This document shows, piece after piece, positions 5,193 to 47,448 of a stretch of DNA of 50,545 nt. Under the pieces are notes generated by a model, which was not told the DNA's origin, did not search any database, and saw only the letters and a program-made list of their open reading frames with translations. The stretch comes from Ignavibacteriota bacterium (lineage in GTDB: Bacteria; Bacteroidota; Ignavibacteria; Tepidaquicellales; Tepidaquicellaceae). Numbering within the stretch: position 1 is the first letter of the stretch; each line of letters starts with the position of its first letter. A program made the position numbers and the translations under genes. The stretch spans positions 1 to 50,545 of the forward strand of contig JAPLFJ010000061.1 in NCBI GenBank assembly GCA_026390735.1, given 5' to 3'.

Positions 5193-6059
5193 ATGGGTAA
5201 AATAAATAATATCATTAACGAAGAATATACCCGGCAGATTGAGTTTGCTGCTATGGTTCTTGCAAAACCAAGGGAATACACTGAGCTTGATATAATCGAG
5301 CACTTTAAAGTTAGTCCCCAGACTATAAGAAGAGATGCAGAAAAGTTAAGAAACATGGGAATAGATATACATTCCAGTAAAAAGAAATATGAAGTAACCG
5401 GCTGTACTAACGACACATTAAACCATTTAATCTGTACATACCTTGCCCTCAATAAATACGACATCATTAAAAACCTGAAACTTATTAAAGGAAAATACCG
5501 CGACGAAACACTGCTTATATTTGTGAACATACTTAAGGCAATTGACAAGAAGCACATGATTGAAATAATATACAGGAAAAACAAAGATGGGGGCTTCAGG
5601 AAAGAAATCACTCCAATCAGTCTATCAAGGACAAACCGGAATGTTTACCTTATTGCAATGGATAACGATGAAGAAGATAAGACAAGAGTATTCCTTCTTG
5701 ATAAAATAGATGATATCAGGTTTCTGAATAAAATATCTAAAGTGAAAAAATACCCTAATACTTTCAGTTTGTTCAAAACATCCTGGGGAATTTATTCAGG
5801 GGGTGAAGAATGCGATGTCTCACTAAAGTTCAGCTCAGAAACAGGAAGGAGCATTAAAAACAAGTTTTACATAGAGACACAGAAAATTATCGAAAAACCA
5901 GACTATTACTTAATGAATATGCGTGTAAAACTATCATTGGAGTTTGTATCATGGGTAATGGGATGGGGTGATGGCGTAGAGGTTGTCAAACCTCAGGAAC
6001 TAAAGGATATGATTGTCGAGAGAGCGGCAAAGATAGTAAAGTTATACAAAAAGAAGTAA
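5193..6059 (+). CDS. WYL-domain transcriptional regulator (copy 1)
   Basis: A 288-aa regulator. Residues 10-65 form a DeoR-like winged helix (FKVSPQTIRRDAEKLRNMGI). Residues 105-180 form a WYL ligand-sensing domain, with the signature region reading RNVYLIAMDND. The C-terminal WCX-like part has FVSWVMGWGDGVEVVKPQEL. WYL proteins sense nucleic acid or nucleotide ligands; CapW/BrxR relatives control phage-defence islands as dimers on palindromes. A paralogue of the same layout lies at 40955-41872. It is a candidate for binding the 19-bp palindrome found across the window (inference; none lies in its own upstream region). Confidence 0.9.
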   Translation: MGKINNIINEEYTRQIEFAAMVLAKPREYTELDIIEHFKVSPQTIRRDAEKLRNMGIDIHSSKKKYEVTGCTNDTLNHLICTYLALNKYDIIKNLKLIKGKYRDETLLIFVNILKAIDKKHMIEIIYRKNKDGGFRKEITPISLSRTNRNVYLIAMDNDEEDKTRVFLLDKIDDIRFLNKISKVKKYPNTFSLFKTSWGIYSGGEECDVSLKFSSETGRSIKNKFYIETQKIIEKPDYYLMNMRVKLSLEFVSWVMGWGDGVEVVKPQELKDMIVERAAKIVKLYKKK

Positions 6060-6339: not shown

Positions 6340-7839
6340 TTATTCTTCTGTTTCGGCAATCCTTTCTAATTCTTCAAGAATTACAATCATACCATAGGTA
6401 TCGCGACCGCAATAGTCCAGAAGATTCTTTCTAACAGTATTAATTTCTTCTTCACTCTGAAGTGATGACAATCTTAGATATTCAACTCCGGCAGCACCAC
6501 CTTCCTGAATTTCAAGATTACTATAACTGTAATCTGAATTTATAGATGGAAGAACTTTTTTCAAAGAATGTCTGCTAACCATATCCGGTTTATAATATGT
6601 TCTATTCTGAAAAGGAATCATCAAGTCCACAATCCTGGAAATTCTGTCCTGCAACTTAAATGCATATTGCGGGAATATCGCTGCAAGCTCTTTTAACCTC
6701 GTTATTTCAAAGGACGCATTGTAAACAAGAATAGTACCCTCACCCGCGGTATCTTTTAAAAGTTTTTCCACAAACTCCAATCTCGGGTCAGTTTTCCCAT
6801 CACCTAAAAATTCAAAGTGCTCAGGTTCTGATTTCCTGTCTTTCTTATAGTACAATGAATACTGGAATACCAATTGCTGATAAGGTCTGGAATTATCAAA
6901 CACAGGTATAGCTGCCTGAATACTTTCAAAATCCATAAAATACAGAGGATATTTTAAGTTGTTTAAGAAGGATTTAATTTCTGTTTTATTTATATATTTC
7001 TTTTGTCCCAGAAAACAATTTTTTTCAACTGCCTGATTTACAGAAAGTCCATAATCATCGGGTATATCTTTAATCTCAACTATTCCGATTTTATAAAGAT
7101 CAAAAGCCTTCTTTCCCATATAACTAAGATTAAAAACAGAGTAATCAGGAATGTGTTTCCAGCAATGACTTTTAAAATCGCATTCAAAAGGTTCATTACA
7201 TTGACTGCCAATTTCTATCTCCGGTATTGTATCTCCATTGAGAACTTGCTTAAATTCAGCAATCTTATTTTCGACAAAATCCTGAAAAGAGATTACCTTT
7301 TCTTTAACCGACCTTATTGTAAATAGTTGATGTACGTTTATTTCACCTTGTCTCACATACTTATTGTTTATATGAATAACGGAAATATCATCTATCAACA
7401 ACCCACTTTTAGTAATTATATAATACTGGACAGAAGTATCGTTAATCTGGTAATCGGAAACCGATGTTGAGCTTTTAACTTCATAAATATTCCATTGATT
7501 TTTCGACTTAACTATTATATCAGCAATGACAAGAACGCCATCATGCTGAAATGCTGCCTCATATATCACTTCACTTCCATCGCTTATTGCTTTTGCTGTA
7601 AGTTCTACAGACTTCTGACCACTCTTGGTTATTTCAAATCCGCAGTCCATCCCACCGGGGAAAAGCTTTTGTGCAAGGGTACCTACGCTGTGTCCTGTTT
7701 CGAATACCTCCTTTGTCTTTTCAGAAGTTTCTCCGCGTAATTCAGAATGATATTTATTCAAATAAAGGGACTTAGTGCACTGAAGACCCATCTGAAAGCT
7801 CGATTTGGATAATACGTGAAACGGTAAATTTGTTTTCAT
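6340..7839 (-). CDS. DUF2779 protein: Cas4-like nuclease plus DnaQ-like exonuclease
   Basis: A 499-aa protein with two nuclease-like halves. The N-terminal half is PD-(D/E)XK/Cas4-like, with Cys21, then Asp107 and Glu120-x-Lys122 (IYEVKSS), then Cys214, Cys220 and Cys226, a likely 4Fe-4S cluster site. The C-terminal half is a DEDD exonuclease fold with Asp303-x-Glu305 in FMDFESI, LVYNASFEITRL and Asp480 in YCGRDTYGM. This is the DUF2779 architecture, a predicted DNA/RNA nuclease. Its ATG overlaps the stop of the upstream family A gene (TAATG), so the two are translationally coupled and driven by the palindrome promoter at 8478-8525. The substrate is unknown. Confidence 0.85.
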   Translation of the reverse strand: MKTNLPFHVLSKSSFQMGLQCTKSLYLNKYHSELRGETSEKTKEVFETGHSVGTLAQKLFPGGMDCGFEITKSGQKSVELTAKAISDGSEVIYEAAFQHDGVLVIADIIVKSKNQWNIYEVKSSTSVSDYQINDTSVQYYIITKSGLLIDDISVIHINNKYVRQGEINVHQLFTIRSVKEKVISFQDFVENKIAEFKQVLNGDTIPEIEIGSQCNEPFECDFKSHCWKHIPDYSVFNLSYMGKKAFDLYKIGIVEIKDIPDDYGLSVNQAVEKNCFLGQKKYINKTEIKSFLNNLKYPLYFMDFESIQAAIPVFDNSRPYQQLVFQYSLYYKKDRKSEPEHFEFLGDGKTDPRLEFVEKLLKDTAGEGTILVYNASFEITRLKELAAIFPQYAFKLQDRISRIVDLMIPFQNRTYYKPDMVSRHSLKKVLPSINSDYSYSNLEIQEGGAAGVEYLRLSSLQSEEEINTVRKNLLDYCGRDTYGMIVILEELERIAETEE

Positions 7840-8417
7840 TATGATAAATCTAATTTTAATACTTTTAATAAAATATCAATTATTCCGTAATTCCTTACAT
7901 CTTTATTCATATATTTCATACTGTATATTTCCATAAGTTTATGGAACAACTCTTCATAATTTCCTCCACCAACAGACTTAATTAAAACATTATGCGAAAA
8001 CGAATGGGATATAAATATTTCATCCATCTTTTCACAAACTTTATATGTGTCATCTGTTTTTTTAAGCAGAAAGTGCGTATCTTCATATATTAATAAAATC
8101 TTTTCTGCTTTATATTTTAAGAATTCAAGCAACATCACAACAGGCATACTACCGCTGTATTCATTATCTTTAAAATAAGCAAATACATACTTATTATCCA
8201 TATTTATAAAATATGAATCTTTTTCACAGTAATGATAGTTTACTGCACAATTTTCGATATTACCACAGCAGTTTTCGCCGAGAGTCTTTATGGAACTTAC
8301 CAAATATTCTGTTGCAGGTTCAATAACTTCCAGTTTTCTGTAAACCGGAATCTTTTCAAACCCATTGATTCCAAAAAACTCTTCTTCGTTAAATGATTTA
8401 CCGTAATGTGGAAACAT
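7839..8417 (-). CDS. Family A protein, copy 1 (unrecognised 192-aa family)
   Basis: One of four full-length 192-aa relatives in this window (others at 8635, 9423 and 29412). All start with MFP, share a (I/P)PVYRKLEV-like segment near residue 25, then TLGENCCG or a variant, NMDNKYVFAYFKD, LLIYEDTHFLL and KLMEIYSMKYMNKDVR, and end in LLKVLKL. The mix of short strands and a helical C-terminus suggests a compact soluble alpha/beta protein; there is no signal peptide or membrane segment. I do not recognise the family. This copy is nearest to copy 3. It is the only copy coupled to a nuclease gene (DUF2779). The leader has a conserved GAAAGGGG block before the ATG. Confidence 0.85.
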   Translation of the reverse strand: MFPHYGKSFNEEEFFGINGFEKIPVYRKLEVIEPATEYLVSSIKTLGENCCGNIENCAVNYHYCEKDSYFINMDNKYVFAYFKDNEYSGSMPVVMLLEFLKYKAEKILLIYEDTHFLLKKTDDTYKVCEKMDEIFISHSFSHNVLIKSVGGGNYEELFHKLMEIYSMKYMNKDVRNYGIIDILLKVLKLDLS

Positions 8418-8477
8418 ATTATATTATCCCCTTTCTGTTACTTTTAATATTATATTTATTCTTATTTTTAATCATGT

Positions 8478-8525
8478 ACAAATATACTTAGTTTACCCGT
8501 TAGATTTTTATCACTGGATGAGAAT
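8478..8525 (-). promoter_or_regulatory. Palindrome-linked promoter for family A copy 1 operon
   Basis: On the minus strand the palindrome ATTCTCAT-CCA-GTGATAAA (8525-8507) is followed after 20 bp by TATATTTGT (8486-8478), a Bacteroidota-type -7 box. The distal half-site is perfect and the proximal one degenerate. Confidence 0.75.
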
Positions 8526-8588
8526 ATTTTAAGTGCAATGATAGAGTATCTAATTGATTGATGGCAATGACTTAATTCCCCAAAAAAA

Positions 8589-8610
8589 GGACTTTTGGAA
8601 TAAAGCCCCT
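8589..8610 (-). terminator. Terminator of family A copy 2
   Basis: On the minus strand GGGGCTTT pairs with AAAGTCCT around a short loop and is followed by a run of T. It lies about 25 bp past the stop of copy 2. The same hairpin type follows copies 3 and 4. Confidence 0.6.
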
Positions 8611-8634
8611 CCCGTCATTTATTCATTCTATAAA

Positions 8635-9213
8635 TTATAGAACATTCAGCTTTAAAACCTTCATTAAAAGATCCAGTGTACTGTAATTACTTACATCAGT
8701 ATTCATATATTTCATACTGTAAACTTCTACAAGTCTTGGAAATACTTTTTCGGGATTTTTATCCTGAACAGCCGGCCTAATAACTCCAAAGAAGAATGAC
8801 TTAGAGGCATAGATTTTATCCAGTATTTTACAAATTTTATATGTCTCAGCCGTCTTTTCAAGTAAAAAGGATGTATCTTCAAATATTATAAGCATTTTAC
8901 ACGCATTAAATTTCAGGAAATCCAGAATCATCAATTTCGGCAAAATATCCGTAAAGTTTACATCTTTGAAATAAGAGTAAACATACTTATCATCCATATT
9001 AATATAAAATGTGTTCACATCGCAGAAATGATAATTAACCACACCATTATCTATATAACCGCAGGAATTATCTCCCAACGACCTGATAGACTCAGCAATA
9101 ACTTTGGAATCAGTTGAAGTAACCTCAAGTTTCCTGTAAGGCGGTATTTCATCATATCCGTTCATTCCGAATATCTCATCACCGGTGTGAATTTTATTGT
9201 GGTTTGGAAACAT
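8635..9213 (-). CDS. Family A protein, copy 2 (unrecognised 192-aa family)
   Basis: Same length and framework as the other family A members: MFPNHNKIHTG start, PPYRKLEV, SLGDNSCG, INMDDKYVYSYFKD, LIIFEDTSFLLEK and EVYSMKYMNTDV. It is the most divergent of the tandem three: the CC of TLGENCCG is SC here. It is monocistronic, with its own palindrome promoter (9274-9321) and its own hairpin terminator. The function is unknown. Separate promoters for each copy suggest that dosage or variant forms matter (inference). Confidence 0.85.
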   Translation of the reverse strand: MFPNHNKIHTGDEIFGMNGYDEIPPYRKLEVTSTDSKVIAESIRSLGDNSCGYIDNGVVNYHFCDVNTFYINMDDKYVYSYFKDVNFTDILPKLMILDFLKFNACKMLIIFEDTSFLLEKTAETYKICKILDKIYASKSFFFGVIRPAVQDKNPEKVFPRLVEVYSMKYMNTDVSNYSTLDLLMKVLKLNVL

Positions 9214-9273
9214 ATTATAATTTCCCCTTTCTATTATTTTTAATATTATATTTATTATTCTTTTAAATCATTC

Positions 9274-9321
9274 ACAAATATACGCAGAATATACTTTGTT
9301 TTGTTACCATCCCATGAGAGT
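9274..9321 (-). promoter_or_regulatory. Palindrome-linked promoter for family A copy 2
   Basis: Minus strand: ACTCTCAT-GGG-ATGGTAAC (9321-9303), 20 bp, then TATATTTGT (9282-9274). The spacing is the same as at the other sites; the proximal half is weak. Confidence 0.7.
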
Positions 9322-9375
9322 ATTTTCGAACCAGGTACATTTACAACCTCCCGCACTATATATGGCAATAAAAAA

Positions 9376-9397
9376 GGGACCTTACGAATAAAGCCCC
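9376..9397 (-). terminator. Terminator of family A copy 3 (TTCG loop)
   Basis: On the minus strand the hairpin GGGGCTTTA-TTCG-TAAGGTCCC, pairing with two G-U wobbles, is followed by six T. It lies about 25 bp past the stop of copy 3. Confidence 0.75.
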
Positions 9398-9422
9398 TCT
9401 TGTCAAAATTCCATCCTGTAAA

Positions 9423-10001
9423 TTATACAACGTCCAGTTTTAAAACCTTCAATAAAATATCTATTATATCGTAAGTCCTTATATCCTTATTCATATATCT
9501 CACGCTGTAGATTTCCATAAGTTTATAAAATATGTTCTCATAATTTCTGTCGCCAATTGACTTCATTAATACATTTTCTATATATGCCCGGGATTTAAAT
9601 ATCTCATCCATCTTTTCGCAAACTTTATATGTATCGTCATTCTTTTTCAGCAGGAAATGCATATCTTTATATATAAGCAAAAACTTATTTGCTTTATACT
9701 TTAAAAATTCTAGTAGTATCATTACAGGTATATAATTGCTAAACTCATGATCTTTGAAGTAAGCAAATACATATTTCTCATCCATATTTATAAAGTATGC
9801 CTCATCATCATAAAAATGATGGTTTACTACATAACCATCAATATACCCGCAGCAGTTTTCGCCGAGAGTCTTTATGGAACTCACTAAATAATCAGTAACC
9901 GGTTCAATTACTTCCATTATGTTGTAAGCAGGAATCTCATCAAATCCATTGGATCCAAATACGTCATCTCCTTTAAATATTTTACAGTGCTCTGGAAACA
10001 T
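9423..10001 (-). CDS. Family A protein, copy 3 (unrecognised 192-aa family)
   Basis: 192 aa with the same framework as its neighbours: MFPEHCKIFKGDD start, YNIMEVIEP, SIKTLGENCCGYI, FINMDEKYVFAYFKD, KMDEIFKSRAY and YSVRYMNKDIRTYDIID. The central and C-terminal parts are very close to copy 1, so this pair duplicated more recently. The gene has its own promoter (10074-10121), a 55-65 nt leader with a CCTTCT-type block, and a TTCG-loop terminator. No catalytic motif can be picked out. The conserved aromatic and acidic residues could suit a binding protein, but this is not established. Confidence 0.85.
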   Translation of the reverse strand: MFPEHCKIFKGDDVFGSNGFDEIPAYNIMEVIEPVTDYLVSSIKTLGENCCGYIDGYVVNHHFYDDEAYFINMDEKYVFAYFKDHEFSNYIPVMILLEFLKYKANKFLLIYKDMHFLLKKNDDTYKVCEKMDEIFKSRAYIENVLMKSIGDRNYENIFYKLMEIYSVRYMNKDIRTYDIIDILLKVLKLDVV

Positions 10002-10073
10002 ACTATAATATCTCCCTTCTATTATTTTTAATAATATTCAAAATTCTATATTTTTTATTCTTCTCAATCATTC

Positions 10074-10121
10074 ACAAATATACAACGTCCCTCCTTCTCC
10101 TTGCTCCCATCCCATGAGAAT
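10074..10121 (-). promoter_or_regulatory. Palindrome-linked promoter for family A copy 3
   Basis: Minus strand: ATTCTCAT-GGG-ATGGGAGC (10121-10103), 20 bp, then TATATTTGT (10082-10074). Confidence 0.75.
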
Positions 10122-10164
10122 ATTCTGGTGTTGACATTATAGTCGTTAATTTAAAGATATTAAT

Positions 10165-10211
10165 ATTCTCATTGGATTAGAATAAAGTGAAGGATTGTAT
10201 GATTAGATTTA
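10165..10211 (+). promoter_or_regulatory. Palindrome-linked promoter for the DUF6717-phosphatase operon
   Basis: Plus strand: ATTCTCAT-TGG-ATTAGAAT (10165-10183), 20 bp, then TAGATTTA (10204-10211), one mismatch from TAnnTTTG. It places the transcript start near 10216 and so decides the start codon of the next gene. Confidence 0.7.
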
Positions 10212-10219
10212 TAGAAAAA

Positions 10220-10561: not shown

Positions 10562-10564
10562 ATT

Positions 10565-11272
10565 ATGAATAAAAATAAAACCATAGCCATCATCGGCGAC
10601 ATTCACGGATGCTACGAGGAATTTCAAGACTTATACAACAGCATTTTGAATTATACAGACAAAGTTTATACTGTAGGGGATTTGATAGACCGAGGGCCGG
10701 ACACAAAGAAAGTAATACAATTCTGTATAGAAAATAACATCAAATCAGTAAGAGGCAATCATGAGGAAATGCTTTTAAGAGCAATCAATAAACCCAGATA
10801 CAAAGAATACCAGGGATACGATACTAACCTTGAAAACTGGCGATACAATGGCGGAAACCGAACAATTAAAAGTTATTTAGGGGATTCGTCAAAAAAATTT
10901 AAAAGCTTTGTGAAAGAGTTTAAAGACTGTTGTCATTATGATTTTATCACAAACCTACCGTTGAAGATAGAAACGGATAACTGCATAATTACTCACGGAG
11001 GAATAGTTAACAACGCGCATTTTGAAAATGTATTGTGGAACAGGGAGATACCGTCAAAACTTAATAAGTTACAGATTTTTGGGCACACGGCTAACCGAAA
11101 CGTATTATACAAACCAAACCATTATATAAACGTCGATACCGGTTGCGTATTTTGGGGCACCATCAGTGCTGCAATAGTTAGCGGTAAGAAGGAAGTAAAT
11201 ATTATTAAATCTAAAGAATATGAAGAATACAAATATAAAGAAGAACATATCAAGAATATATCAGCATATTGA
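10565..11272 (+). CDS. PPP-family metallophosphatase (copy 1)
   Basis: A 235-aa calcineurin-like phosphoesterase of the bacterial PPP type (ApaH/PrpA-like). All metal-ligand motifs are present: GDIHG (Asp12, His14), GDLIDRGP (Asp39, Arg43), GNHE (Asn65, His66, Glu67), THGG near 144 and FGHT near 171. Relatives dephosphorylate proteins or cleave dinucleoside polyphosphates; which applies here cannot be told. A paralogue at 40089-40739 shares the same promoter type. Its last 53 bp overlap the next gene, suggesting coupling. The C-terminal tail (KEYEEYKYKEEH) is charged and absent from the paralogue. Confidence 0.9.
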   Translation: MNKNKTIAIIGDIHGCYEEFQDLYNSILNYTDKVYTVGDLIDRGPDTKKVIQFCIENNIKSVRGNHEEMLLRAINKPRYKEYQGYDTNLENWRYNGGNRTIKSYLGDSSKKFKSFVKEFKDCCHYDFITNLPLKIETDNCIITHGGIVNNAHFENVLWNREIPSKLNKLQIFGHTANRNVLYKPNHYINVDTGCVFWGTISAAIVSGKKEVNIIKSKEYEEYKYKEEHIKNISAY

Positions 11273-13103: not shown

Positions 13104-13151
13104 ACAAATATAATACTTCGACCTGCTATATTATTCTCATAGGATTAGAAT
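13104..13151 (-). promoter_or_regulatory. Palindrome-linked promoter for the zincin operon
   Basis: Minus strand: ATTCTAAT-CCT-ATGAGAAT (13151-13133), 20 bp, then TATATTTGT (13112-13104). Here the proximal half is perfect and the distal half has one mismatch. Confidence 0.75.
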
Positions 13152-17249: not shown

Positions 17250-17296
17250 ATTCTCATCCCATTGGAATAATCTCAAAGCTACATTCCCCATATTGC
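17250..17296 (+). promoter_or_regulatory. Palindrome-linked promoter for the M42-like peptidase
   Basis: Plus strand: ATTCTCAT-CCC-ATTGGAAT (17250-17268), 20 bp, then CATATTGC (17289-17296), a weak TAnnTTG match at the standard position. Confidence 0.55.
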
Positions 17297-18040: not shown

Positions 18041-18087
18041 TTTCTCATATTATGAGAACAAACAATTATTCAATAATATTAAATTAT
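18041..18087 (+). promoter_or_regulatory. Palindrome-linked promoter for AAA+ ATPase copy 1
   Basis: Plus strand: TTTCTCAT-ATT-ATGAGAAC (18041-18059), 20 bp, then TAAATTAT (18080-18087). A better-looking TATATTTA lies 5 bp further on (18085-18092), so the exact -7 is uncertain. Confidence 0.65.
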
Positions 18088-18117: not shown

Positions 18118-19491
18118 ATGGCAAACAGATTTAAGAAAAAGACAAGAAGTCAGGGGTTTGAAAGTGACGTGATGGACGGCTCTGCCCTTAATTATAACGA
18201 AGAGATTAACCTCGTGAAATCGGTTAATATTAATAAAAGGAATTTTGTCTATCCTTTGTTTCAGTCAAGTTTAAAGGTCTTTGTTTATGAATTCATAAAA
18301 ACCTATTTGCATGGCTTATATATGGGGACTCAGAAAAATGAGAACCTTGTGATTGAGAATTTTGCAGCTCTTGCTTCGAACGCAAACCCCGTGATGACTG
18401 CTCCGCAGATTGCAACATACAAGGAAAACGGCTCAGCAATTATTGAGAATCACTCTATATATGTGCACTTACGCTATATGGGCGCTCCGTATCAGGTAAC
18501 TGTTTTTCTTATCAGCAACGGAAACGGAATGTTTAATGATTTAAAGTACTTTATTTCAGTGCTGGGTATTGAGAATAATTCATATCAGACTCACCAACTT
18601 GCAGACCATATTATTTCTGAATCTATAAAGAATTCGATTTATAAGAATTCAATCATCAACCTTAAGTTTGATTCGGAAGGCAGGATTGATATTGAAGAAA
18701 TGAATATCAGTGAGTTCAAGAGTGAAAAGCTCGAAGAAATATTTATACCCGCTTCGTATAAAACTGAATTAAAGAAGTTTTATAAATGTATTAAGGATTA
18801 TAAGGATATCGGTCTGAAACTCAGATATTTGTTCAGCGGCAAACCTGGAACAGGTAAAACAAAATCCGTGAGGACCCTCATTAATATGTGTCATAAGAAA
18901 GCAACTATTCTTCTTACTGAAGGTGATGTCGATTTTAAAGCACTGTTTGACTTTGCAAGGCTGTTTGAACCGGCTATAATTTGTCTTGACGACCTTGACC
19001 TTCTTGTAGGTAGCCGCTCCAGTAATTACTCACCGAAACTACTCAGTTCTTTCCTGCAGGAACTCGACGGATTTGATAAGAATAACGTTTTCCTGCTTGC
19101 AACAACTAATGATAAAGAACTTGTTGACCTTGCAGCTTCAAGACCTCTGAGGTTTGACCTTACGCTTGATTTTGGTATGCTCGATAATAAGAATTATTAC
19201 GACCTTGTAATGGCTAACACAAAGAATGAAAAGATACTGAATATCTTCGATGACGAACTTATGGATTCTCTAAAGAAGAAAAAGGTAACAGGTGCATTCA
19301 TCGTGAACCTGATTCATCAGGCAGAAATAATGGATAAGATAAACCCTGCTACTGATTTAAAGAAGTACCTTCAGAACTTTATTGAAATGTCGTATAACGG
19401 TTTTTATAAGGAACATGAAGATGAACAGAAGGATTTCGGGTTCAGCATGAGCAAGGCATCGAATGACGATTTCCTTGAACTGGAATTATAA
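18118..19491 (+). CDS. AAA+ ATPase, copy 1
   Basis: A 457-aa protein. The first 220 residues are a domain I do not recognise, conserved in the paralogue. The AAA+ core follows: Walker A GKPGTGKT at about 241-248, Walker B IICLDDLDLL at about 287-296, sensor 1 FLLATTNDKEL, and an SRPLRFDLTLDF segment with the arginine expected of an arginine finger. The layout (N-domain plus one AAA+ module) recalls BCS1- or proteasome-type remodellers; there is no protease domain and no membrane segment. The C-terminus is acidic (NDDFLELEL). It is preceded by its own palindrome promoter and followed by a strong terminator. Copy 2 (32139-33512) has the same length and is about 85% identical by eye. Confidence 0.9.
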   Translation: MANRFKKKTRSQGFESDVMDGSALNYNEEINLVKSVNINKRNFVYPLFQSSLKVFVYEFIKTYLHGLYMGTQKNENLVIENFAALASNANPVMTAPQIATYKENGSAIIENHSIYVHLRYMGAPYQVTVFLISNGNGMFNDLKYFISVLGIENNSYQTHQLADHIISESIKNSIYKNSIINLKFDSEGRIDIEEMNISEFKSEKLEEIFIPASYKTELKKFYKCIKDYKDIGLKLRYLFSGKPGTGKTKSVRTLINMCHKKATILLTEGDVDFKALFDFARLFEPAIICLDDLDLLVGSRSSNYSPKLLSSFLQELDGFDKNNVFLLATTNDKELVDLAASRPLRFDLTLDFGMLDNKNYYDLVMANTKNEKILNIFDDELMDSLKKKKVTGAFIVNLIHQAEIMDKINPATDLKKYLQNFIEMSYNGFYKEHEDEQKDFGFSMSKASNDDFLELEL

Positions 19492-20131: not shown

Positions 20132-21673
20132 ATGGAAATAATTATTTACGTAGTAACCGGAATGTTCATTGGAGGCCTAATTGGCTGGCTAGTAGCTAAA
20201 ACAAGAAATAATACAGCTATTCAATTAGAAAAGGAAGAAGCCCAGATAAAGTATAACAATCTCGATAAAGATTTTGCTACCTATAAAGCAACAGCACAAA
20301 CAAATATGCAAACATTAAATGAGACAATGGATAAAAAGGAAAAAGAGCATAATTTGTTGACTGATGCTGTTAAAGATAATTCCATAGCTATGACAGAGAT
20401 TAACAATCAATTATCTACTGTAACGGCAAACCTTAATGCAGCAAATAAAACTATAATTGACAAAAAAGTAGAAATAGAGATAATTAAAGAAGAGCGAAAT
20501 GCATTAAGCAAGGAGTTAACACAAACCAATCAACGTTTAGCTACTGCCGATGCCAACAATCAAGCTTTAGATGAAAAGTTAGAAACTCAGAAGAAGGAAA
20601 TGGAAGAATTAGGAACGAAGTTTAATACTGAATTTGAGAATATTGCAAATAAGATATTAGACACAAAAACTGAGAAATTTACCGAATTAAACAAAAACAA
20701 CCTTAAAACTATTCTTGAACCTTTAGGAAAAAATATCGATGATTTTAAAAGACAAGTTGATGATGTATATAAGGCTGAATCGAAAGAACGATTTTCATTA
20801 GGTGAAAAAGTCAGGGAATTGGCACAGCTTAACCAGGTAATCAGTGAGGAAGCAAAAAACTTAACCAAAGCTTTAAAAGGCGAGGCAAAAACACAAGGAC
20901 GCTGGGGTGAAATGATACTGGAGAGTATATTAGAAAAATCCGGCCTCAGAAAAGACGAACAATATTTTATGGAATATGAATTAAAGGACGAAAACGGTAT
21001 TCCTTTAAAATCTGATTCGGAAGGAAAGAAAATGCGTCCTGATGCAGTAATAAAATACCCTGATAACCGAAATGTAATTATAGATTCAAAAGTTTCTTTA
21101 AACGCCTTTACAAGGTTTATAGCAGCAACGGATGTAGATGAACAAAAGAAAGAGCTTCAGGATCACATAACGGCGGTTAAAAACCATATAATTTCTCTAA
21201 GCGCTAAAGGATATGATGATTATGACAAAGCATTAGATTTTGTAATGATGTTTGTTCCAAGTGAACCGGCTTATATTGCTGCATTACAAGGTGACCCGGA
21301 ATTATGGAATTTTGCTTATGACAAAAGAATATTACTGCTAAGTCCTACTAATTTAATAACATCGCTAAAATTAATTGTCGACTTGTGGAAACGTGAGCAT
21401 CAGAACCTGAATGCAAAAACAATTGCTGAAAGAGGGGCTAAATTATATGATAAATTTGTAGGGTTTGTTTCAAATCTTGAGGAGGTTGGCGAGCATATTG
21501 AGAAAGCAAAAGGTAAATATAATGAAGCCTTTAAACAATTAAGTACTGGAAATGATAATCTTGTTTCACAGGCTACTAAATTAAGAGATTTAGGATTAAA
21601 GACTAAAAAGGAATTACCTCAGGAATTGATCAACGATTCTGCAGCAAACGAATCACTGAATGAAAATAATTAA
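20132..21673 (+). CDS. rmuC: RmuC-family protein
   Basis: A 513-aa RmuC homologue of normal length. Residues 2-22 form a single N-terminal membrane helix, about 25-175 a long coiled coil, and about 250-470 the RmuC domain with GRWGEMILESILEKSGL, RPDAVIKYPD, VIIDSKVSL (the PD-(D/E)XK-like core) and SPTNLITSLKLIVDLWK. RmuC limits DNA inversions at short repeats and is a predicted nuclease anchored at the membrane. It is usually a housekeeping gene, so a second or island-borne copy would be notable; this cannot be judged here. No close operon partner is seen. Confidence 0.93.
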   Translation: MEIIIYVVTGMFIGGLIGWLVAKTRNNTAIQLEKEEAQIKYNNLDKDFATYKATAQTNMQTLNETMDKKEKEHNLLTDAVKDNSIAMTEINNQLSTVTANLNAANKTIIDKKVEIEIIKEERNALSKELTQTNQRLATADANNQALDEKLETQKKEMEELGTKFNTEFENIANKILDTKTEKFTELNKNNLKTILEPLGKNIDDFKRQVDDVYKAESKERFSLGEKVRELAQLNQVISEEAKNLTKALKGEAKTQGRWGEMILESILEKSGLRKDEQYFMEYELKDENGIPLKSDSEGKKMRPDAVIKYPDNRNVIIDSKVSLNAFTRFIAATDVDEQKKELQDHITAVKNHIISLSAKGYDDYDKALDFVMMFVPSEPAYIAALQGDPELWNFAYDKRILLLSPTNLITSLKLIVDLWKREHQNLNAKTIAERGAKLYDKFVGFVSNLEEVGEHIEKAKGKYNEAFKQLSTGNDNLVSQATKLRDLGLKTKKELPQELINDSAANESLNENN

Positions 21674-21682
21674 CACTCGGTC

Positions 21683-21870
21683 GTATTATACTTAATAAAC
21701 TCAAAAATCAACATAACCGGCAGATTATCATAAAATTCAACATTTTTGATATACGCAATCATTTATAATATGAATCCATATCACAAAACTGATAGTTTAT
21801 TTTGCAATTATCAATATAGCCGTAACTGTTTTCTCCAAACGTTCTTATAGTAGTAAAATTCTTAATAAAC
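21683..21870 (-). pseudogene. Decayed family A remnant
   Basis: No open frame remains, but the sequence aligns with the middle of family A copy 4 (29690-29890): both carry CTTAATAAACTCAAAAATCAAC, a GGCAGATTAT box and TTTATTTTGCAATTATCAA, followed by the region coding for the GYFDNC/TLGENCYG segment. A deletion near 21765 removes part of the NKYVFAYFKD coding region. It is a fifth, dead member of the family, lying just past the end of the MORC-like operon that separates it from copy 4. Confidence 0.8.
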
Positions 21871-21880
21871 TGTTTTTCAT

Positions 21881-22789
21881 TTAAATTTTAATTAATTCAC
21901 TTAGGATGTTTTTGGATGTTAGGCCACTAAGGTCAATATCATATGAGAATTTTCTAATATGCTTATTTAGATTTAGAATATTCAGCATTTCCATTGTTAT
22001 TTTAGGGAAATTATCATCTACTATATAAATACAGGCTTCTTTGAGTGTATATTCATCTTTATATTGTGGTGTTCCTGGTTCATATTTCTTGTCCTTGAGA
22101 ATCTCGTATACCTCGTTTTTAATTCCTGGTTCCGTGATTTTCTGAACACATTTTTCAATACTGAACCCACCATTAAGACATGGTTCAAATCTAAGGAACA
22201 CTAGTTGCAACGGTTTGTTGTTATTATTATTAAGTTGAAATTCCCCTGAAATTGTGACTATTCGTTCGTAATGCTTAATTGTGCTTTTGACCTCAAAAGA
22301 ACAAATAGATGTTTCTATATCATGACTTCCTGATTTTGGTCCACTCCATACCGTTTCATTATGATTATTTTTGATTTCCCATATGAAAACAATTAATTCA
22401 CCAATTGTTGAGTATACAGATTCATCCCTGATAGCGTTGCCCATTAATTTTTTCCAGTTATCCCACCAGTTCTGAGGAGATGATTGTATTATTTCCCTGT
22501 TATCTTTACTTATAAAATCAATACAGGTCATTGAAAATTGATTAATAAGATTTTCGTTTATACAATAAAAGTATAAATACCTTCCCTTGTTATCACCATC
22601 TATTGTAACATCCTCCAATCCGGAAGCAGAAAATCTTAATTTTATAGGTTCATTTTGATTGTAAGGTATTAAAATGCCAAATTTGTCATCTGTGCAGTAA
22701 ACAAATGAATGATCATGGTTTTCCAATGGAATAGTTCTATTTTGAAGTCTATTCCTAAAATACTCTCTCAATTTTTCAATTGTTATCAT
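21881..22789 (-). CDS. PD-(D/E)XK motif protein of the Z1/MORC-like restriction operon
   Basis: A 302-aa protein with a nuclease core: Glu131 in STIGELIVFIWE, Asp157 in GSHDIETSI and Glu166-x-Lys168 in CSFEVKST. This is the pattern of the PD-(D/E)XK proteins that accompany Z1 helicases in the MutL/MORC-type restriction systems described by Iyer, Abhiman and Aravind (2008). Its ATG overlaps the stop of the Z1 gene by 4 bp (ATGA), the last link of the five-gene operon. It is the likely DNA-cleaving subunit. All putative active-site residues are present, so this gene looks intact even though the helicase is interrupted. Confidence 0.82.
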   Translation of the reverse strand: MITIEKLREYFRNRLQNRTIPLENHDHSFVYCTDDKFGILIPYNQNEPIKLRFSASGLEDVTIDGDNKGRYLYFYCINENLINQFSMTCIDFISKDNREIIQSSPQNWWDNWKKLMGNAIRDESVYSTIGELIVFIWEIKNNHNETVWSGPKSGSHDIETSICSFEVKSTIKHYERIVTISGEFQLNNNNNKPLQLVFLRFEPCLNGGFSIEKCVQKITEPGIKNEVYEILKDKKYEPGTPQYKDEYTLKEACIYIVDDNFPKITMEMLNILNLNKHIRKFSYDIDLSGLTSKNILSELIKI

Positions 22790-25551: not shown

Positions 25552-25578
25552 AATATTATAATTAAATTTTAAGAAATA

Positions 25579-26292: not shown

Positions 26293-26294
26293 AG

Positions 26295-27203: not shown

Positions 27204-27204
27204 T

Positions 27205-29142: not shown

Positions 29143-29365
29143 TATTATTTAAGTTGAATTTTCAAAGTCAATTTTTGTAATTTAAATATAGCAAAAAAAG
29201 TTTTAATATCAGAGTGTAATATTTGAACTTACCTCATTTCCGGTATATTCAACAAAATATTTGTAAACACCTAAATCTCATCAAAGTAGAAATAAACATA
29301 ACTTTACTGTTGAGTAAGAAGAGGATTTTATCGGGAGGACATGATATTTTTAATCATATTAAAAC

Positions 29366-29391
29366 GAGGGACTTTACGAATAAAGTCCCTC
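29366..29391 (-). terminator. Terminator of family A copy 4 (TTCG loop)
   Basis: Perfect 11-bp hairpin; on the minus strand GAGGGACTTTA-TTCG-TAAAGTCCCTC followed by GTTTT. It lies 21 bp past the stop of copy 4 and has the same form as the terminators of copies 2 and 3. The rest of 29143-29411 holds no gene. Confidence 0.85.
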
Positions 29392-29411
29392 ATAAAATTA
29401 TCATAATTGAC

Positions 29412-30002
29412 CTATGAAATCTCCAGCTTTAATATCTTCAAAAGGACATCCAGTAATTTGTATTTTCTTATATCCTTGTTCAGATATCTCATGCTGAATA
29501 TTTCCATAAGTTTATAATAAATATCGTCTCTATTCCCATAATAAATCGATGAGATTATAACATTAAACAAAAAACTATCAGACAGGAAAATCTCTTCCAG
29601 CTTTTCACAAGCTTTAAAAGTATCCGGAGTTTTTTCAATAAGAAGGTGCGTATCTTCAAAAATCAACAGAAGTTTATCTGCACCATACTTAATAAACTCA
29701 AAAATCAACGTTACAGGCAGATTATTGTCAAATTCAATATCCTTAAAATATGCAAAAACATATTTATTATTCATAATTACAGGGTATGAATCATAATCAC
29801 AACACTCATTGTCACAAATCTGAAAGTTTATTTTGCAATTATCAAAATAGCCATAGCAGTTTTCGCCCAGTGTTCTTACGGCATTTGCAAAACATACAGT
29901 TTTGGCTTCATCAACTTCCATATTCCTGTATACCGGAATAATTTCAGGCTCCTGAATCGAAAAATAATCTTTTGGATTTTCATTAATGTAACTTGGAAAC
30001 AT
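29412..30002 (-). CDS. Family A protein, copy 4
   Basis: A 196-aa member of the unrecognised family, 19 kb away from the tandem three. It keeps MFP, IPVYRNMEV, TLGENCYGYF, MNNKYVFAYFKD, LLLIFEDTHLLIEK and EIFSMRYLNKDIRKY. A four-residue insertion adds a Cys/Asp cluster (QICDNECCDYDSYP near 66-79), which could bind a metal. The leader carries the same GAAAGGGG block, and promoter and terminator are of the same type as for the other copies, so the whole transcription unit was copied. The relic at 21683-21870 is its nearest relative. Confidence 0.85.
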   Translation of the reverse strand: MFPSYINENPKDYFSIQEPEIIPVYRNMEVDEAKTVCFANAVRTLGENCYGYFDNCKINFQICDNECCDYDSYPVIMNNKYVFAYFKDIEFDNNLPVTLIFEFIKYGADKLLLIFEDTHLLIEKTPDTFKACEKLEEIFLSDSFLFNVIISSIYYGNRDDIYYKLMEIFSMRYLNKDIRKYKLLDVLLKILKLEIS

Positions 30003-30057: not shown

Positions 30058-30105
30058 ACAAATATAGCAAACATACCATTTCATTTGTTATCATCACATG
30101 AGAAT
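30058..30105 (-). promoter_or_regulatory. Palindrome-linked promoter for family A copy 4
   Basis: Minus strand: ATTCTCAT-GTG-ATGATAAC (30105-30087), 20 bp, then TATATTTGT (30066-30058). Confidence 0.75.
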
Positions 30106-31955: not shown

Positions 31956-32003
31956 ACTAAAATATGATAAAATGTTTGGTTATCATTCTCACACTGTGAG
32001 AAT
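31956..32003 (-). promoter_or_regulatory. Palindrome-linked promoter for the WG-repeat gene
   Basis: A perfect 19-bp palindrome, ATTCTCAC-ACT-GTGAGAAT on the + strand (31985-32003). On the minus strand TATTTTAG-T (31964-31956) lies at the standard distance. A second perfect palindrome 50 bp away serves the divergent AAA+ gene. Confidence 0.75.
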
Positions 32004-32053: not shown

Positions 32054-32100
32054 ATTCTCACAGTGTGAGAATGATCATTCGGGAATTTTCAGTAACTTGT
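32054..32100 (+). promoter_or_regulatory. Palindrome-linked promoter for AAA+ ATPase copy 2
   Basis: Plus strand: perfect palindrome ATTCTCAC-AGT-GTGAGAAT (32054-32072), 20 bp, then TAACTTGT (32093-32100). The apparent upstream start at 32097 falls inside this box. Confidence 0.78.
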
Positions 32101-32138: not shown

Positions 32139-33512
32139 ATGGCAAACAGATATAAGAAAAGAACAAGAGAACAAGGATTTGAGAATGAAGTCCTTACGGG
32201 AACTGCTCTCAACTACAATGATGAAGTGAACCTTGTTAAATCGGTAAACATAAACAAGCGGAACTTTGTCTATCCTTTGTATCAGACCAGTTTGAAGGTT
32301 TTTGTGTATGAGTTTGTGAAAACTTACCTGCATTCCCTGTACATGGGAAACCTTAAAAACGAGGATATAGTAATAGAAAATTTTGCAGCTCTCGCTTCAA
32401 GCGCAAATCCCGTTATGACGGCACCACAGGTGGCAACATATAAAGAAAACGGAGCGGCGATAATAGAGAACCATTCAATATATGTGCATTTGAAGTACAA
32501 AGGTGCACCTTATCAGGTAACGGTATTTCTGATGAGTGCTAACAATGGAATGTTTAATGATATAAGATATTTTATTTCAGTACTAGGAATTGAGAATGAT
32601 TCATATCAGACGAATCAGCTTGCAACCTATATTGTGGATGAGGCAATAAGAAACTCTATCTACAAGAATTCAATTCTTAACCTGAAGTTTGATTCCAACG
32701 GAAGGATTGACATAGAAGAGATGAACATTAAGGAATTTAAAAACGAGAAACTTGACGAGATATTCATACCAGCTTCGTATAAAACTGAAGTTAAGAAGTT
32801 TTACAAATGTGTTAAGGATTATAAGGATATAGGTCTGAGACTCAGGTACTTGTTCAGTGGCAAGCCAGGAACAGGGAAAACCAAATCTGTCAGGACGCTT
32901 ATTAATATGTGCTATAAAAAGGCTACGATTATACTTACTGAAGGTGAAGTAGATTTTAAATCACTGTTTGATTTTGCGAAGTTGTTTGAACCTGCGATAA
33001 TTTGTCTTGACGACCTGGACCTGCTTGTGGGAAGTCGTTCCAGGAATTATTCGCCGAGATTGCTTGGCGCATTCCTGCAGGAACTTGACGGCTTTGACAA
33101 GAATAACGTGTTTCTGCTTGCGACAACAAACGACAAGGAGTTAGTAGACATGGCAGCATCAAGACCGCTGCGTTTTGACCTAACGCTTGATTTTGGCAGG
33201 CTTGATAATAAAAATTACTATGACCTGGTGATGGCAAACACGAAGAATGAAAAGATACTGAGTATCTTTGATGATGAACTGATGGATTCGCTGAAAAAGA
33301 AAAAGGTAACGGGTGCGTTTATTGTAAACCTTATACATCAGGCAGAAATAATGGACAAGATAAACCCTGATACTGATTTGAAGAAGTACCTTCAGAACTT
33401 TGTTGAAATGGCATACAACGGCTTTTATAAAGAACAGGAGGAAGAGCATAAAGAATTCGGATTCAGTATGAGCAAGGCATCGAATGACGATTTTTTAGAT
33501 TTAGAACTTTGA
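32139..33512 (+). CDS. AAA+ ATPase, copy 2
   Basis: 457 aa from ATG 32139. The frame is open from 32097, but that lies in the -7 box, and MANRYKKRTREQGF aligns with the start of copy 1. Walker A GKPGTGKTKS, Walker B IICLDDLDLL, sensor 1 LLATTNDKEL and SRPLRFDLTLDF are all unchanged relative to copy 1, as are long stretches of the unrecognised N-terminal domain. Codon choices differ more than residues do, so the duplication is not recent and both copies seem to be under selection (inference). Unlike copy 1 there is no peptidase gene beside it; its divergent neighbour is the WG-repeat gene. The two could form a mixed hexamer. Confidence 0.9.
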   Translation: MANRYKKRTREQGFENEVLTGTALNYNDEVNLVKSVNINKRNFVYPLYQTSLKVFVYEFVKTYLHSLYMGNLKNEDIVIENFAALASSANPVMTAPQVATYKENGAAIIENHSIYVHLKYKGAPYQVTVFLMSANNGMFNDIRYFISVLGIENDSYQTNQLATYIVDEAIRNSIYKNSILNLKFDSNGRIDIEEMNIKEFKNEKLDEIFIPASYKTEVKKFYKCVKDYKDIGLRLRYLFSGKPGTGKTKSVRTLINMCYKKATIILTEGEVDFKSLFDFAKLFEPAIICLDDLDLLVGSRSRNYSPRLLGAFLQELDGFDKNNVFLLATTNDKELVDMAASRPLRFDLTLDFGRLDNKNYYDLVMANTKNEKILSIFDDELMDSLKKKKVTGAFIVNLIHQAEIMDKINPDTDLKKYLQNFVEMAYNGFYKEQEEEHKEFGFSMSKASNDDFLDLEL

Positions 33513-38106: not shown

Positions 38107-38898
38107 TTACAATGAATTAAACTGCGTTATTATTTCTTTGAATTCACCTGGCAATATATTCCATACCTTATTTCCGATTTCAAAGGGCAGTTCTTTGTAA
38201 TAAGCAAGAGCGATACCGCCTGTTATACAGGCAATGGTGTCGCTATCACCTCCAATAGATATTGCCAGCCTTATTGCGCTCTCATAATCAGAACTTTCAA
38301 GAAACGCAATGATTGATTCTGGAACAGAGCCCTTACAACTTACATCGTAATTGTAAATTTTTCTTATATCATCAATTTTTCTGTTCAAATCATAATAAAA
38401 AGTATTCTCAATATAGTTCTTAATCTCTGCTTTGCTTGAGCCTTGTCTTGCGAGATAAATCGCTGAGGCTGTTGCCTGGGCACCTTTTATTCCTTCAGGA
38501 TGGTTATGTGTCGGCATAGCACTGTTCTTTGCCGCTTCCAGTGAGTCAACCAAATAATCATACAAACTCCCGCAGGCACTAACCCTCATTGCAGAGCCAT
38601 TTCCCCAGCTGTTGTATGGCTTGGGATTCTCCATGTATATCCACTTTTTAAAGAATCCACCGTAACATCTATGAGGATATTTTCTGCCGTAGTCCTGATA
38701 AGTCTTAGTATAATCTTTCCCGTTTAACAAACAATCAGCAACCGCAATCGACATAACCGTGTCATCTGTGAAATCCGACTTATCACAAAACAAATCAAAC
38801 TCCGTTGACTTAACATTCTTCCATTCAAAAATAGAACCTATTATGTCGCCTGTTATTGCACCAAATAACGGAGTATTTATATCTGAATATTTTTCCAT
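38107..38898 (-). CDS. ADP-ribosylglycohydrolase
   Basis: A 263-aa ARH/DraG-family enzyme. The dinuclear metal site is visible: GAITGDIIGS near 13, FTDDT at 43-47, and GGDSDTIACITGG near 215. GNGSAMRVS near 95 and PTHNHPEGIKGA near 128 are typical of bacterial members. It removes ADP-ribose from proteins, nucleic acids or free ADP-ribose derivatives. In a defence-rich region it could reverse an ADP-ribosylating toxin or repair ADP-ribosylated DNA, but no ART gene is seen in the window. It is intact and of normal length, in the cytosol. Confidence 0.92.
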   Translation of the reverse strand: MEKYSDINTPLFGAITGDIIGSIFEWKNVKSTEFDLFCDKSDFTDDTVMSIAVADCLLNGKDYTKTYQDYGRKYPHRCYGGFFKKWIYMENPKPYNSWGNGSAMRVSACGSLYDYLVDSLEAAKNSAMPTHNHPEGIKGAQATASAIYLARQGSSKAEIKNYIENTFYYDLNRKIDDIRKIYNYDVSCKGSVPESIIAFLESSDYESAIRLAISIGGDSDTIACITGGIALAYYKELPFEIGNKVWNILPGEFKEIITQFNSL

Positions 38899-39816: not shown

Positions 39817-39864
39817 TTCAAATTACAATAAATCCATATATGTTTGTTCTTACGGGATGAGAAT
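39817..39864 (-). promoter_or_regulatory. Palindrome-linked promoter upstream of the 158-aa gene
   Basis: Minus strand: ATTCTCAT-CCC-GTAAGAAC (39864-39846), 20 bp, then TAATTTGA (39825-39818), a TAnnTTG match. Confidence 0.65.
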
Positions 39865-40088: not shown

Positions 40089-40739
40089 TCAATTAGATGA
40101 TAGTATTTCAACATTATCCTCAGATAATACCACAGCACTTAGTGTTCCCCAGAACACACAACCTGTGTCAACATTTATGTAATGCTTTTGCTTATGGATT
40201 ACTCCTCTGTGCGGTGTATGGCCAATAACCTGTATCACGTCAAGTTTGGCAGGTTCTTCCCTGTTCCATAAACACGATTCAGGTTTTTGTTCTTTAATAA
40301 TACCACCATGGGAGATAATACAGTCCCCAAGTTCTATTTCCAAAGGCAGACCAGAAATATATTCAAAATGACCTGAATCTTTAAAAAAGTCAGTAAATAT
40401 TTTAAAACCTGCGCGTGTTGTTCCTGTGTAACTTTCTACTGTATCCTCGGCACCATCCCATAACCCTAAGGATGAATTACCCGCAGAATACAGTCCTTTC
40501 TTGGAATCCTGGTTTTCAATTGCTTTTATCAGCAAATCTTCGTGGTTACCCTTTACAGGTTTTATATTGTTGTCTATGCAGAATTGTATTACCTGCCTGG
40601 AATCAGGGCCTCTGTCTATTAAATCACCAACAGAGTACACTTCATCTGTAAAAGCAAAGATTTTTTCATACAAATCCTGCAGTTCGTCGAAACAACCGTG
40701 TATGTCGCCTATTACCGCTATTTTCTTATTTTTAATCAT
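40089..40739 (-). CDS. PPP-family metallophosphatase (copy 2), probably leaderless
   Basis: 216 aa from ATG 40739. The frame also opens at TTG 40745, but that lies in the -7 box. Motifs GDIHGCFDELQDLYEK, GDLIDRGPDSRQVI, GNHE, SHGG and IGHTPHRG give the full PPP metal site. It is clearly paralogous to 10565-11272, including VDTGCVFWGTLSAVVLS at the end, but lacks its charged tail. The promoter's -7 box ends four bases before the ATG, so the transcript likely begins at or next to the start codon. It stands alone, unlike copy 1, which sits in an operon. The substrate is unknown: phosphoprotein or dinucleoside polyphosphate. Confidence 0.9.
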   Translation of the reverse strand: MIKNKKIAVIGDIHGCFDELQDLYEKIFAFTDEVYSVGDLIDRGPDSRQVIQFCIDNNIKPVKGNHEDLLIKAIENQDSKKGLYSAGNSSLGLWDGAEDTVESYTGTTRAGFKIFTDFFKDSGHFEYISGLPLEIELGDCIISHGGIIKEQKPESCLWNREEPAKLDVIQVIGHTPHRGVIHKQKHYINVDTGCVFWGTLSAVVLSEDNVEILSSN

Positions 40740-40741
40740 AT

Positions 40742-40789
40742 ACAAAATTACAAAATATCATCGTACTGATTATCTCATATAGTGAGAAT
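40742..40789 (-). promoter_or_regulatory. Palindrome-linked promoter for phosphatase copy 2
   Basis: Minus strand: ATTCTCAC-TAT-ATGAGATA (40789-40771), 20 bp, then TAATTTTG (40750-40743), an exact TAnnTTTG box directly before the ATG. Confidence 0.75.
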
Positions 40790-40954: not shown

Positions 40955-41872
40955 TTACTTGTCATATTTTTGTATAATCTCTCTGGCCCTTAGAAGAATG
41001 GCCTCTTTCAGCATTTCCGGCTTAATAACTTCCACCAGCCCTCCCCAGCCCATTACCCAGGATATAAAATCATAGGACACCTTGACCTTCATTTTCAATA
41101 CATAATAATCCGAAAATTCTGAAATGTCCTGTTCTTCAATGTAAAATTTGGTGGCAAAATCATCTCCGACTTCCTTATTGAATTTAAGCTCAACATCGTA
41201 TTCCCTGCCGCCTAAAAATATTCCCCAGGCATATTTAAACATATCATAAATATCAGGATAAAATCTGTTTCTTGTTTTCCCATCTGTGAACTCCACACTG
41301 TCAATTTTATCCATTCTGTATATTCTCGGTTTATTTGGGTTGTCATTTTCAAGGGCTATCAAATAAACATCCCTGCCGTTTCTTGTCAGACTGATTGGTG
41401 ATACCTCTTTCCTGACGCTTTCATTATCTTTTTTACCGTATGAAATGTGGAGAATATGCCTCTTGGTGATTGCATTCAGTATATTTACAAATATAAGCAA
41501 TGTCTCGTCTTTATATTTCTTTCTTATAAGAGTAAGATTCTTGATATGGTCATATTTGTTAAGCGCCATATATTTGCAAATCAGTTTATTTAACATTAGA
41601 TCACTCCATTTGTCAAGAATATAATACTTCCTCTTTTTCGAACATATACGAATGCCTGATTTTCTCAGTTCCAGCGCGTCTCTTCTAACTGTTGAAACAC
41701 TCTCCATAAAATAGTCGCTTAAATCATTTTCAGTATAATGATTTGGTTTTGCCATAATCAATGCAGCAAATTCAATCCGCCTCATTGATTCATCGCTTAC
41801 AACTTTTAATGAATTCCTTGATTGTGTTAACTCTATTCTCTTTTCCATTAATGCTTTTGTTGATTCGTTCAT
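40955..41872 (-). CDS. WYL-domain transcriptional regulator (copy 2)
   Basis: A 305-aa relative of the regulator at 5193. It has the same parts: a longer N-terminus with RRIEFAALIMAKPNHYTE, winged helix MESVSTVRRDALELRKSGI, LNKLICKYMALNKYDHIKNL, WYL region VSPISLTRNGRDVYLIALEND, and C-terminal FISWVMGWGGLVEVIKPEML. The recognition helices differ (FKVSPQTIRRD against FMESVSTVRRD), so the two may bind different operators, matching the two palindrome types in the window (inference). It lies between the last phosphatase promoter and McrBC, divergent from McrBC. Confidence 0.9.
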   Translation of the reverse strand: MNESTKALMEKRIELTQSRNSLKVVSDESMRRIEFAALIMAKPNHYTENDLSDYFMESVSTVRRDALELRKSGIRICSKKRKYYILDKWSDLMLNKLICKYMALNKYDHIKNLTLIRKKYKDETLLIFVNILNAITKRHILHISYGKKDNESVRKEVSPISLTRNGRDVYLIALENDNPNKPRIYRMDKIDSVEFTDGKTRNRFYPDIYDMFKYAWGIFLGGREYDVELKFNKEVGDDFATKFYIEEQDISEFSDYYVLKMKVKVSYDFISWVMGWGGLVEVIKPEMLKEAILLRAREIIQKYDK

Positions 41873-44263: not shown

Positions 44264-44286
44264 CAGAGTAATAACAAATCATACGA

Positions 44287-47401: not shown

Positions 47402-47448
47402 ATTCTCACCAGGTGAGATTATAGAAGGCTTTGAAATGATTATCTTGT
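47402..47448 (+). promoter_or_regulatory. Palindrome-linked promoter for the zinc-ribbon gene
   Basis: Plus strand: ATTCTCAC-CAG-GTGAGATT (47402-47420), 20 bp, then TATCTTGT (47441-47448). It is the rightmost site of the 19-bp type. Confidence 0.7.

Follow-up and report, generated by a model that had tools for sequence, protein, structure and literature searches.

In IetAS, IetS is a subtilisin-type protease, and the metal motif of JAMM proteins consists of Glu, HxHP and SxxD. BrxR, a regulator of the WYL type, has two R-boxes whose 11-bp arms stand 5 bp apart (PMC9122601). Npl4 and inactive MPN proteins such as Rpn8 are found with Cdc48 and proteasomal AAA+ ATPases (PMC4192671). Here we compare these systems with a locus from an Ignavibacteriota bacterium (assembly GCA_026390735.1), contained in a contig of 50,545 nucleotides (JAPLFJ010000061.1), hereafter the window, which makes up 1.3% of a 4.0-Mb genome. 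The window carries several copies of an undescribed protein family, which we label family X. Family X very probably belongs to a set of genes linked by one palindromic operator, and this shared switch suggests a defence module under joint control, of which X would be one component, and not a group of immunity proteins that act alone. What was an anonymous multicopy gene can now be tested as a member of an island-wide regulon for which a DNA site is defined and both a regulator and a motor partner can be put forward as candidates.

The operator was found by eye in a comparison of upstream regions, as a 17-bp palindrome of the form TTCTCAY-N3-RTGAGAA (TTCTCAYNNNRTGAGAA). Allowing one mismatch, the window contains 10 sites; 60 dinucleotide shuffles gave a mean of 0.10 and never more than 1. 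Some of the sites counted had themselves served to define the pattern, and not all of them are independent, since the pair before the second AAA+ gene and the three tandem promoters of X are in part duplicates. The whole genome has 14 such sites, of which 10 lie in the window (binomial p 9.5e-17), as do all three of the perfect ones. Outside the window 4 were found where about 8 are expected from the scaled shuffle rate, and hence there is no excess there. Two further sites, each with two mismatches, lie inside the RmuC gene (20792) and in front of a small frame (35442). For the base-count table of the operator 14 sites were used, among them the degenerate X2 site but not the one inside RmuC. 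The other operator-like sites are given in Table 1.

An earlier note on this DNA had described four copies of a 192-residue protein on the contig. There are four full copies, but the fourth has 196 residues; a fifth full copy was not found in searches across the whole 4.0-Mb genome, and the relic that the note reported is indeed present as broken minus-strand pieces. Copies 2, 3 and 4 are 49, 67 and 52% identical to copy 1, and most aligned members share IPxY near the N-terminus, a (S/C)GYI strand and a mid-protein LEKTxxTYxxC. The promoter and leader said to be common to the copies were recovered as well: the upstream regions align with invariant blocks, TATATTTGT among them, and the leader, of the AGAAAGGGG type, stops 10 bases 5' of the ATG. 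The short leader alone is not unique, because the window contains 12 matches to AGAAAGGGGATA with up to two mismatches where 6.1 are expected, and only four of the 12 belong to family X. A scan for sigma-70 promoters stayed at chance level (20 matches, 18.3 expected), and TATATTTG, which we take to resemble the Bacteroidota -7 box, fits better. The claim that three copies share one type of terminator holds, as copies 2, 3 and 4 are each followed by a hairpin and a T run (z -1.15, -4.0 and -6.3), the hairpin of copy 2 being weak by itself. No fold was found in the 49 bases 3' of copy 1, which is coupled to the DUF2779 gene, as had been claimed, through a TAATG overlap at 7837-7841. Weak Cas4-type matches fall in the N-terminal part of the DUF2779 protein.

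Table 1. Features of the window, with positions on the contig; mismatches of operator-like sites are to TTCTCAYNNNRTGAGAA.
Feature	Position	Strand	Remark
X copy 1	7839..8417	-	192 aa; stop codon overlaps start of DUF2779 gene
X copy 2	8635..9213	-	192 aa
X copy 3	9423..10001	-	192 aa
X copy 4	29412..30002	-	196 aa
X relic	about 21652..21905	-	pieces, with stops and a frame change
DUF2779 protein	6340..7839	-	Pfam DUF2779 E 2e-41; coupled to X copy 1
Terminator-like hairpin after X2	8575..8615	-	
Terminator-like hairpin after X3	9365..9405	-	
Terminator-like hairpin after X4	29355..29400	-	
AAA1, AAA+ ATPase	18118..19491	+	nearest defence model IetA; nearest solved structures p97/Cdc48
AAA2, AAA+ ATPase	32139..33512	+	86% identical to AAA1
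WYL1, HTH-WYL-WCX regulator 1	5193..6059	+	candidate operator binder
WYL2, HTH-WYL-WCX regulator 2	40955..41872	-	HTH match below cut-off
Calcineurin-like (PPP/ApaH-type) phosphatase 1	10565..11272	+	
Calcineurin-like phosphatase 2	40089..40745	-	
ADP-ribosylglycohydrolase	38107..38898	-	relative adjoins X in G277
Operator-like site upstream of X1	8508..8524	.	1 mismatch
Degenerate site upstream of X2	9304..9320	.	3 mismatches, background alone; aligns with X1 and X3 sites
Site upstream of X3	10104..10120	.	2 mismatches
Site upstream of DUF6717-phosphatase gene pair	10166..10182	.	1 mismatch
Site between divergent genes 12440-13087 and 13294-14199	13134..13150	.	1 mismatch
Site upstream of weakly M42-like gene (17327)	17251..17267	.	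2 mismatches
Site upstream of AAA1	18042..18058	.	perfect
Site upstream of X4	30088..30104	.	1 mismatch
Site upstream of AAA2	31986..32002	.	perfect
Second site upstream of AAA2	32055..32071	.	perfect
Intergenic site	39847..39863	.	1 mismatch
Site upstream of phosphatase 2	40772..40788	.	1 mismatch
Intergenic site	47403..47419	.	1 mismatch

Gene order in other genomes links family X to the same partners. The window has relatives of WYL, AAA+ and phosphatase genes, each twice. In genome G035 a WYL regulator gene and an AAA+ gene flank X; in G277 a single strand carries WYL, HAD, AAA+, X and ADP-ribosylglycohydrolase genes in that order; and in G008 X adjoins a phosphatase gene, with DUF2779, AAA+ and WYL genes on the same 15-kb contig. 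At a presence threshold of E 1e-50, the AAA+ gene was found in 19 of 391 genomes, namely in 4 of the 6 with X and 15 of the 385 others (Fisher p 5.7e-5, for genomes that are not independent and only six X carriers). Outside the window 25 AAA+ loci were examined, several of them truncated by contig edges, and 13 have a WYL gene of the same cluster; the gene-cluster table lacks the X gene of G055, where a longer overlapping frame hid it. In all five aligned AAA+ proteins the Walker B motif ends in DD, the usual end being DE.

The operator can be followed into some of these loci. Of these 25 AAA+ loci, 23 were scanned for palindromes, and five (G008, G035, G097, G157 and G390) have a related palindrome at the AAA+ gene, all five with a WYL gene. 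TTATCAYNNNRTGATAA occurs once per genome in G097, G390 and G157, always at the AAA+ gene, and G035 has two such sites, one of them between X and AAA+; these genomes were picked because their loci already showed the site, and the surprise is that no other sites were found in them. When the G157 frame is read at its greatest length, the site lies within its opening codons, and the true AAA+ start may lie downstream of the palindrome. In G008, sites of the TTCTRATNNNATYAGAA type lie between X and the phosphatase gene (no mismatch) and before AAA+ (one mismatch), and G114, which counts among the loci in which the scan found no palindrome, has a further variant. On L026, a gene at 10062-10958 is preceded by a 17-bp palindrome identical, spacer included, to that between X and AAA+ in G035, 4 kb off. 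The window's own genome (G000) has 13 perfect TTATCAYNNNRTGATAA palindromes outside the window, on contigs C1, C4, C18, C29, C30, C39, C51, C55, C58, C63 and C67, against none in the reversed control, and these may perhaps mark a second, genome-wide regulon of a related type.

A WYL-type regulator, common beside the AAA+ gene, is the likely candidate for the operator binder. WYL1 has helix-turn-helix (HTH), WYL and WCX matches all above cut-off and matches the WYL models of PADLOC, while the HTH match of WYL2 reaches 23.3 bits against a cut-off of 25. What makes the WYL protein the natural candidate is that BrxR, also of the WYL type, is described as binding inverted repeats within a defence island (PMC9122601).

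Family X is rare and patchy within Ignavibacteria. By profile search, the family is present in 4 of 197 relatives, in 6 of 391 genomes of the class (7 matches less one chance match, G190), in 2 of 395 genomes of the phylum draw (3 less G190) and in 3 of 98 genomes from the order of G277, counts that include the window's own genome and come from draws that overlap. The match removed from these counts (G190, E 4e-4) reads as an amidohydrolase-type frame. The family thus exists in five genomes besides the window's, all of the same class, so it is not confined to this strain; more than one copy is found only in the window's genome among the six. Scans of viral contigs and of a genome-contig collection found no X, a result of low weight since two X-bearing contigs of that collection were missed. 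The description of the family as unrecognised stands, with no housekeeping match: searches of Pfam, NCBIfam and PADLOC gave no match to X and those of PHROGs only matches at E >0.01, none of nine members has a Pfam match even at E 10, and none of the four copies matches an immunity, antitoxin or defence model of PADLOC or NCBIfam. The best row in a profile search of solved structures, a bromodomain match of 35 residues at E 0.02, was read as chance. Among the literature matches listed, no title or abstract opening names the family. In G055 a caspase-type peptidase gene stands beside X (L027 9837-11060; Pfam Peptidase_C14, E 1e-24).

The divergence of the copies had been taken to suggest selection for variant forms, and this finds no support in the ratios of nonsynonymous to synonymous substitution (dN/dS, Nei-Gojobori) of 0.22-0.36 in all six copy pairs, which speak against gene-wide diversifying selection. 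In windows of 40 codons, X1 against X3 always stays below 1, with the highest value, 0.56, at the N-terminus; a few sites could be under diversifying selection. The corresponding ratio of proportions (pN/pS) is 0.33-0.53 for X copies, 0.11 for the AAA+ pair, 0.38 for the WYL pair and 0.35 for the phosphatase pair, and the speed of divergence is therefore not special to family X, as the WYL and phosphatase pairs diverge much alike. AAA1 and AAA2 have a dN/dS of 0.03 with dS saturated.

Structure prediction gives a first indication of what X may be. Two models were compared, one of X copy 3 (mean confidence, pLDDT, 85) and one of the G035 member (about 20% identical; pLDDT 70), and both run in the order beta-alpha-beta-beta-beta-alpha-beta-beta, then helices. 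In structural comparison, JAMM/MPN entries, with RadC counted and chains of large complexes taken as MPN subunits by inference, fill 16 of 19 rows for the first model and 15 of the top 16 for the second, the top entries being AMSH, JAMM1, BRCC36, Rpn8/Rpn11, AF2198 and RadC. The full JAMM metal motif is present in none of nine X members; HxH occurs in two (G055 and G260), one strand too early and lacking both the P and a spaced SxxD. HORMA, Imm and SUKH folds are not among the fold rows listed, which excludes none of them. From these models, there is close to an even chance that family X has an MPN-like fold, most like inactive JAMM/MPN domains, a resemblance of weak to moderate strength.

We tentatively favour, at somewhat below an even chance for the statement as a whole, a reading in which X serves, without catalytic activity, as an adaptor in a defence module that is built on a Cdc48-like AAA+ ATPase and controlled by a WYL regulator. 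X would be a small partner protein of the AAA+ ATPase in a defence-type island, whose promoters would be held by a WYL-HTH regulator through the shared palindrome TTATTCTCAT-N3-ATGAGAATAA. When a ligand of the regulator appears, X copies, AAA+ ATPases, phosphatases and other genes would respond jointly. With a predicted JAMM/MPN-like fold devoid of metal ligands, X would not be a peptidase; it would instead bind a target, possibly of phage origin, and pass it to the Cdc48-like AAA+ ring, or, in the case of copy 1, alternatively to the coupled DUF2779 nuclease, and several diverged copies would widen the range of targets. A more specific version, in which X and AAA+ form a bacterial counterpart of Cdc48-Npl4, an inactive MPN adaptor feeding an unfoldase, with diverged copies for different phage targets under one WYL operator, we hold to be improbable.

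Several observations weigh against the adaptor reading. The operator excess fades at two mismatches (105 sites in the genome, 71 in the reversed control), and at three the window has 19 sites against 13 expected and a maximum of 22, which is no clear excess. Eighteen of the 23 scanned AAA+ loci have no such palindrome at AAA+, the X-bearing stretch of G277 included; in G008, TTCTRATNNNATYAGAA with one mismatch is near background (22 sites, reversed control 17); and the 200 bases upstream of each of the window's two WYL genes contain no perfect 7-base inverted repeat that includes G or C. Two genomes, G055 and G260, carry X without AAA+ at E 1e-50. On the structural side, Z is about 4-6 with a maximum of 6.2, and models without a clear match typically reach 7 to 8; the odds of an MPN-like fold are lowered because a Z of 5-6 falls below this usual value. 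Foldseek alone found no match at E 0.001 for either model, its best viral rows being an uncharacterised siphovirus protein and minor capsid proteins that an MPN fold does not explain (E 0.006-0.01, template modelling score up to 0.42, root mean square deviation 8-12). When X was compared by hhalign with alignments of 20 of 33 RadC and 14 of 27 Prok-JAB matches, the profiles gave no signal and scored no better than unrelated families.

Other readings of the same facts are less probable. X could be an antitoxin or immunity protein that silences an effector of the island, the DUF2779 nuclease or the AAA+ system, with different copies matching different effectors, as the translational coupling of X1 and the several diverged copies, each with its own promoter, would lead one to expect. 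However, the nuclease gene adjoins only one of the four copies, the DUF2779 gene of G008 is not adjacent to X, that of G332 (77% complete) adjoins AAA+ with X not found there, and the copies are under purifying selection, so we consider this unlikely. The recognition or immunity role first proposed for the family may still apply, but the shared operator and the gene order tie X to the AAA+ ATPase. Slightly better placed, though still rather unlikely, is an RNA-repair or nucleotide-stress regulon in which X is a stress factor with no direct anti-phage role. An RNA-repair-type HAD in the G277 operon, the receiver-domain protein for cyclic-phosphate processing near AAA1 (19573-20025), the ADP-ribosylglycohydrolase and the PPP phosphatases, which have polynucleotide kinase-phosphatase matches below cut-off, fit such a regulon. 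Against it are the sporadic occurrence of X and AAA+ and the presence in the island of an integrase and of Z1/MzaC-like and McrBC-like genes, the last so named by reading.

It is distinctly improbable that X is a regulatory protein, a ligand sensor or anti-regulator acting on WYL, with copies that tune the regulon. The operator does stand at the X genes themselves and X of G035 sits between WYL and AAA+, but among the 13 AAA+ loci that have a WYL gene and lie outside the window, X is present in only three (G008, G035 and G277). The adaptor reading is the one we retain. The gene surroundings of X are of defence type, with integrase, Z1 and RmuC genes in the window.

Some features of the island stand beside these arguments. 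A cluster with a Z1-domain/MzaC-like gene and a DUF4420 protein of the PD-(D/E)XK type occupies 21881-29142, where the Z1 gene is apparently split into frames at 22786-24633 and 24721-25551. An McrBC-like pair, by reading, lies at 42428-45675; its first gene gives weak PADLOC matches to type II restriction endonucleases and its second none. The gene at 19573-20025, which encodes the cyclic-phosphate-processing receiver-domain protein, stands directly 3' of AAA1, and a tandem repeat at 49650-49790 encodes TDDEE units in a small acidic protein of the open reading frame list.

The systems set out at the beginning can now be compared with this locus. As with IetAS (IetA in PADLOC, IteA in NCBIfam), the window AAA+ has IetA as its nearest defence model, but its two proteins score 58 and 57 bits against an NCBIfam cut-off of 510, and it is not assigned as IetA. 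In three of the genes flanking the AAA+ genes (17327, 19573 and 30212) Pfam finds no subtilase, the first having an M42 match below cut-off, and the frames 3' of AAA2 measure 82 and 101 aa; the linked protein here is X. Prok-JAB/JAMM peptidases of bacterial ubiquitin-like systems may resemble X in predicted fold, at weak scores, and differ in that X has no Pfam match, lacks the full metal motif and gave a negative profile comparison. BrxR-type regulators, as described in PMC9122601, share with the window a WYL-HTH protein among defence genes and inverted repeats before island genes, with a further operator within the island. Here, by contrast, ten putative operators (at most one mismatch) spread over about 39 kb together with an AAA+/X module, and if WYL binds them, a single regulator would govern that stretch with more sites than the two R-boxes of BrxR. 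With Npl4 and inactive MPN proteins such as Rpn8, which accompany Cdc48 and proteasomal AAA+ (PMC4192671), X would share a JAMM-less MPN-like fold (predicted, weak) beside a Cdc48-like AAA+, its resemblance being one of predicted fold with no sequence match. If both the fold and the AAA+ partnership hold, X would be the bacterial version of an adaptor-unfoldase pair known in eukaryotes.

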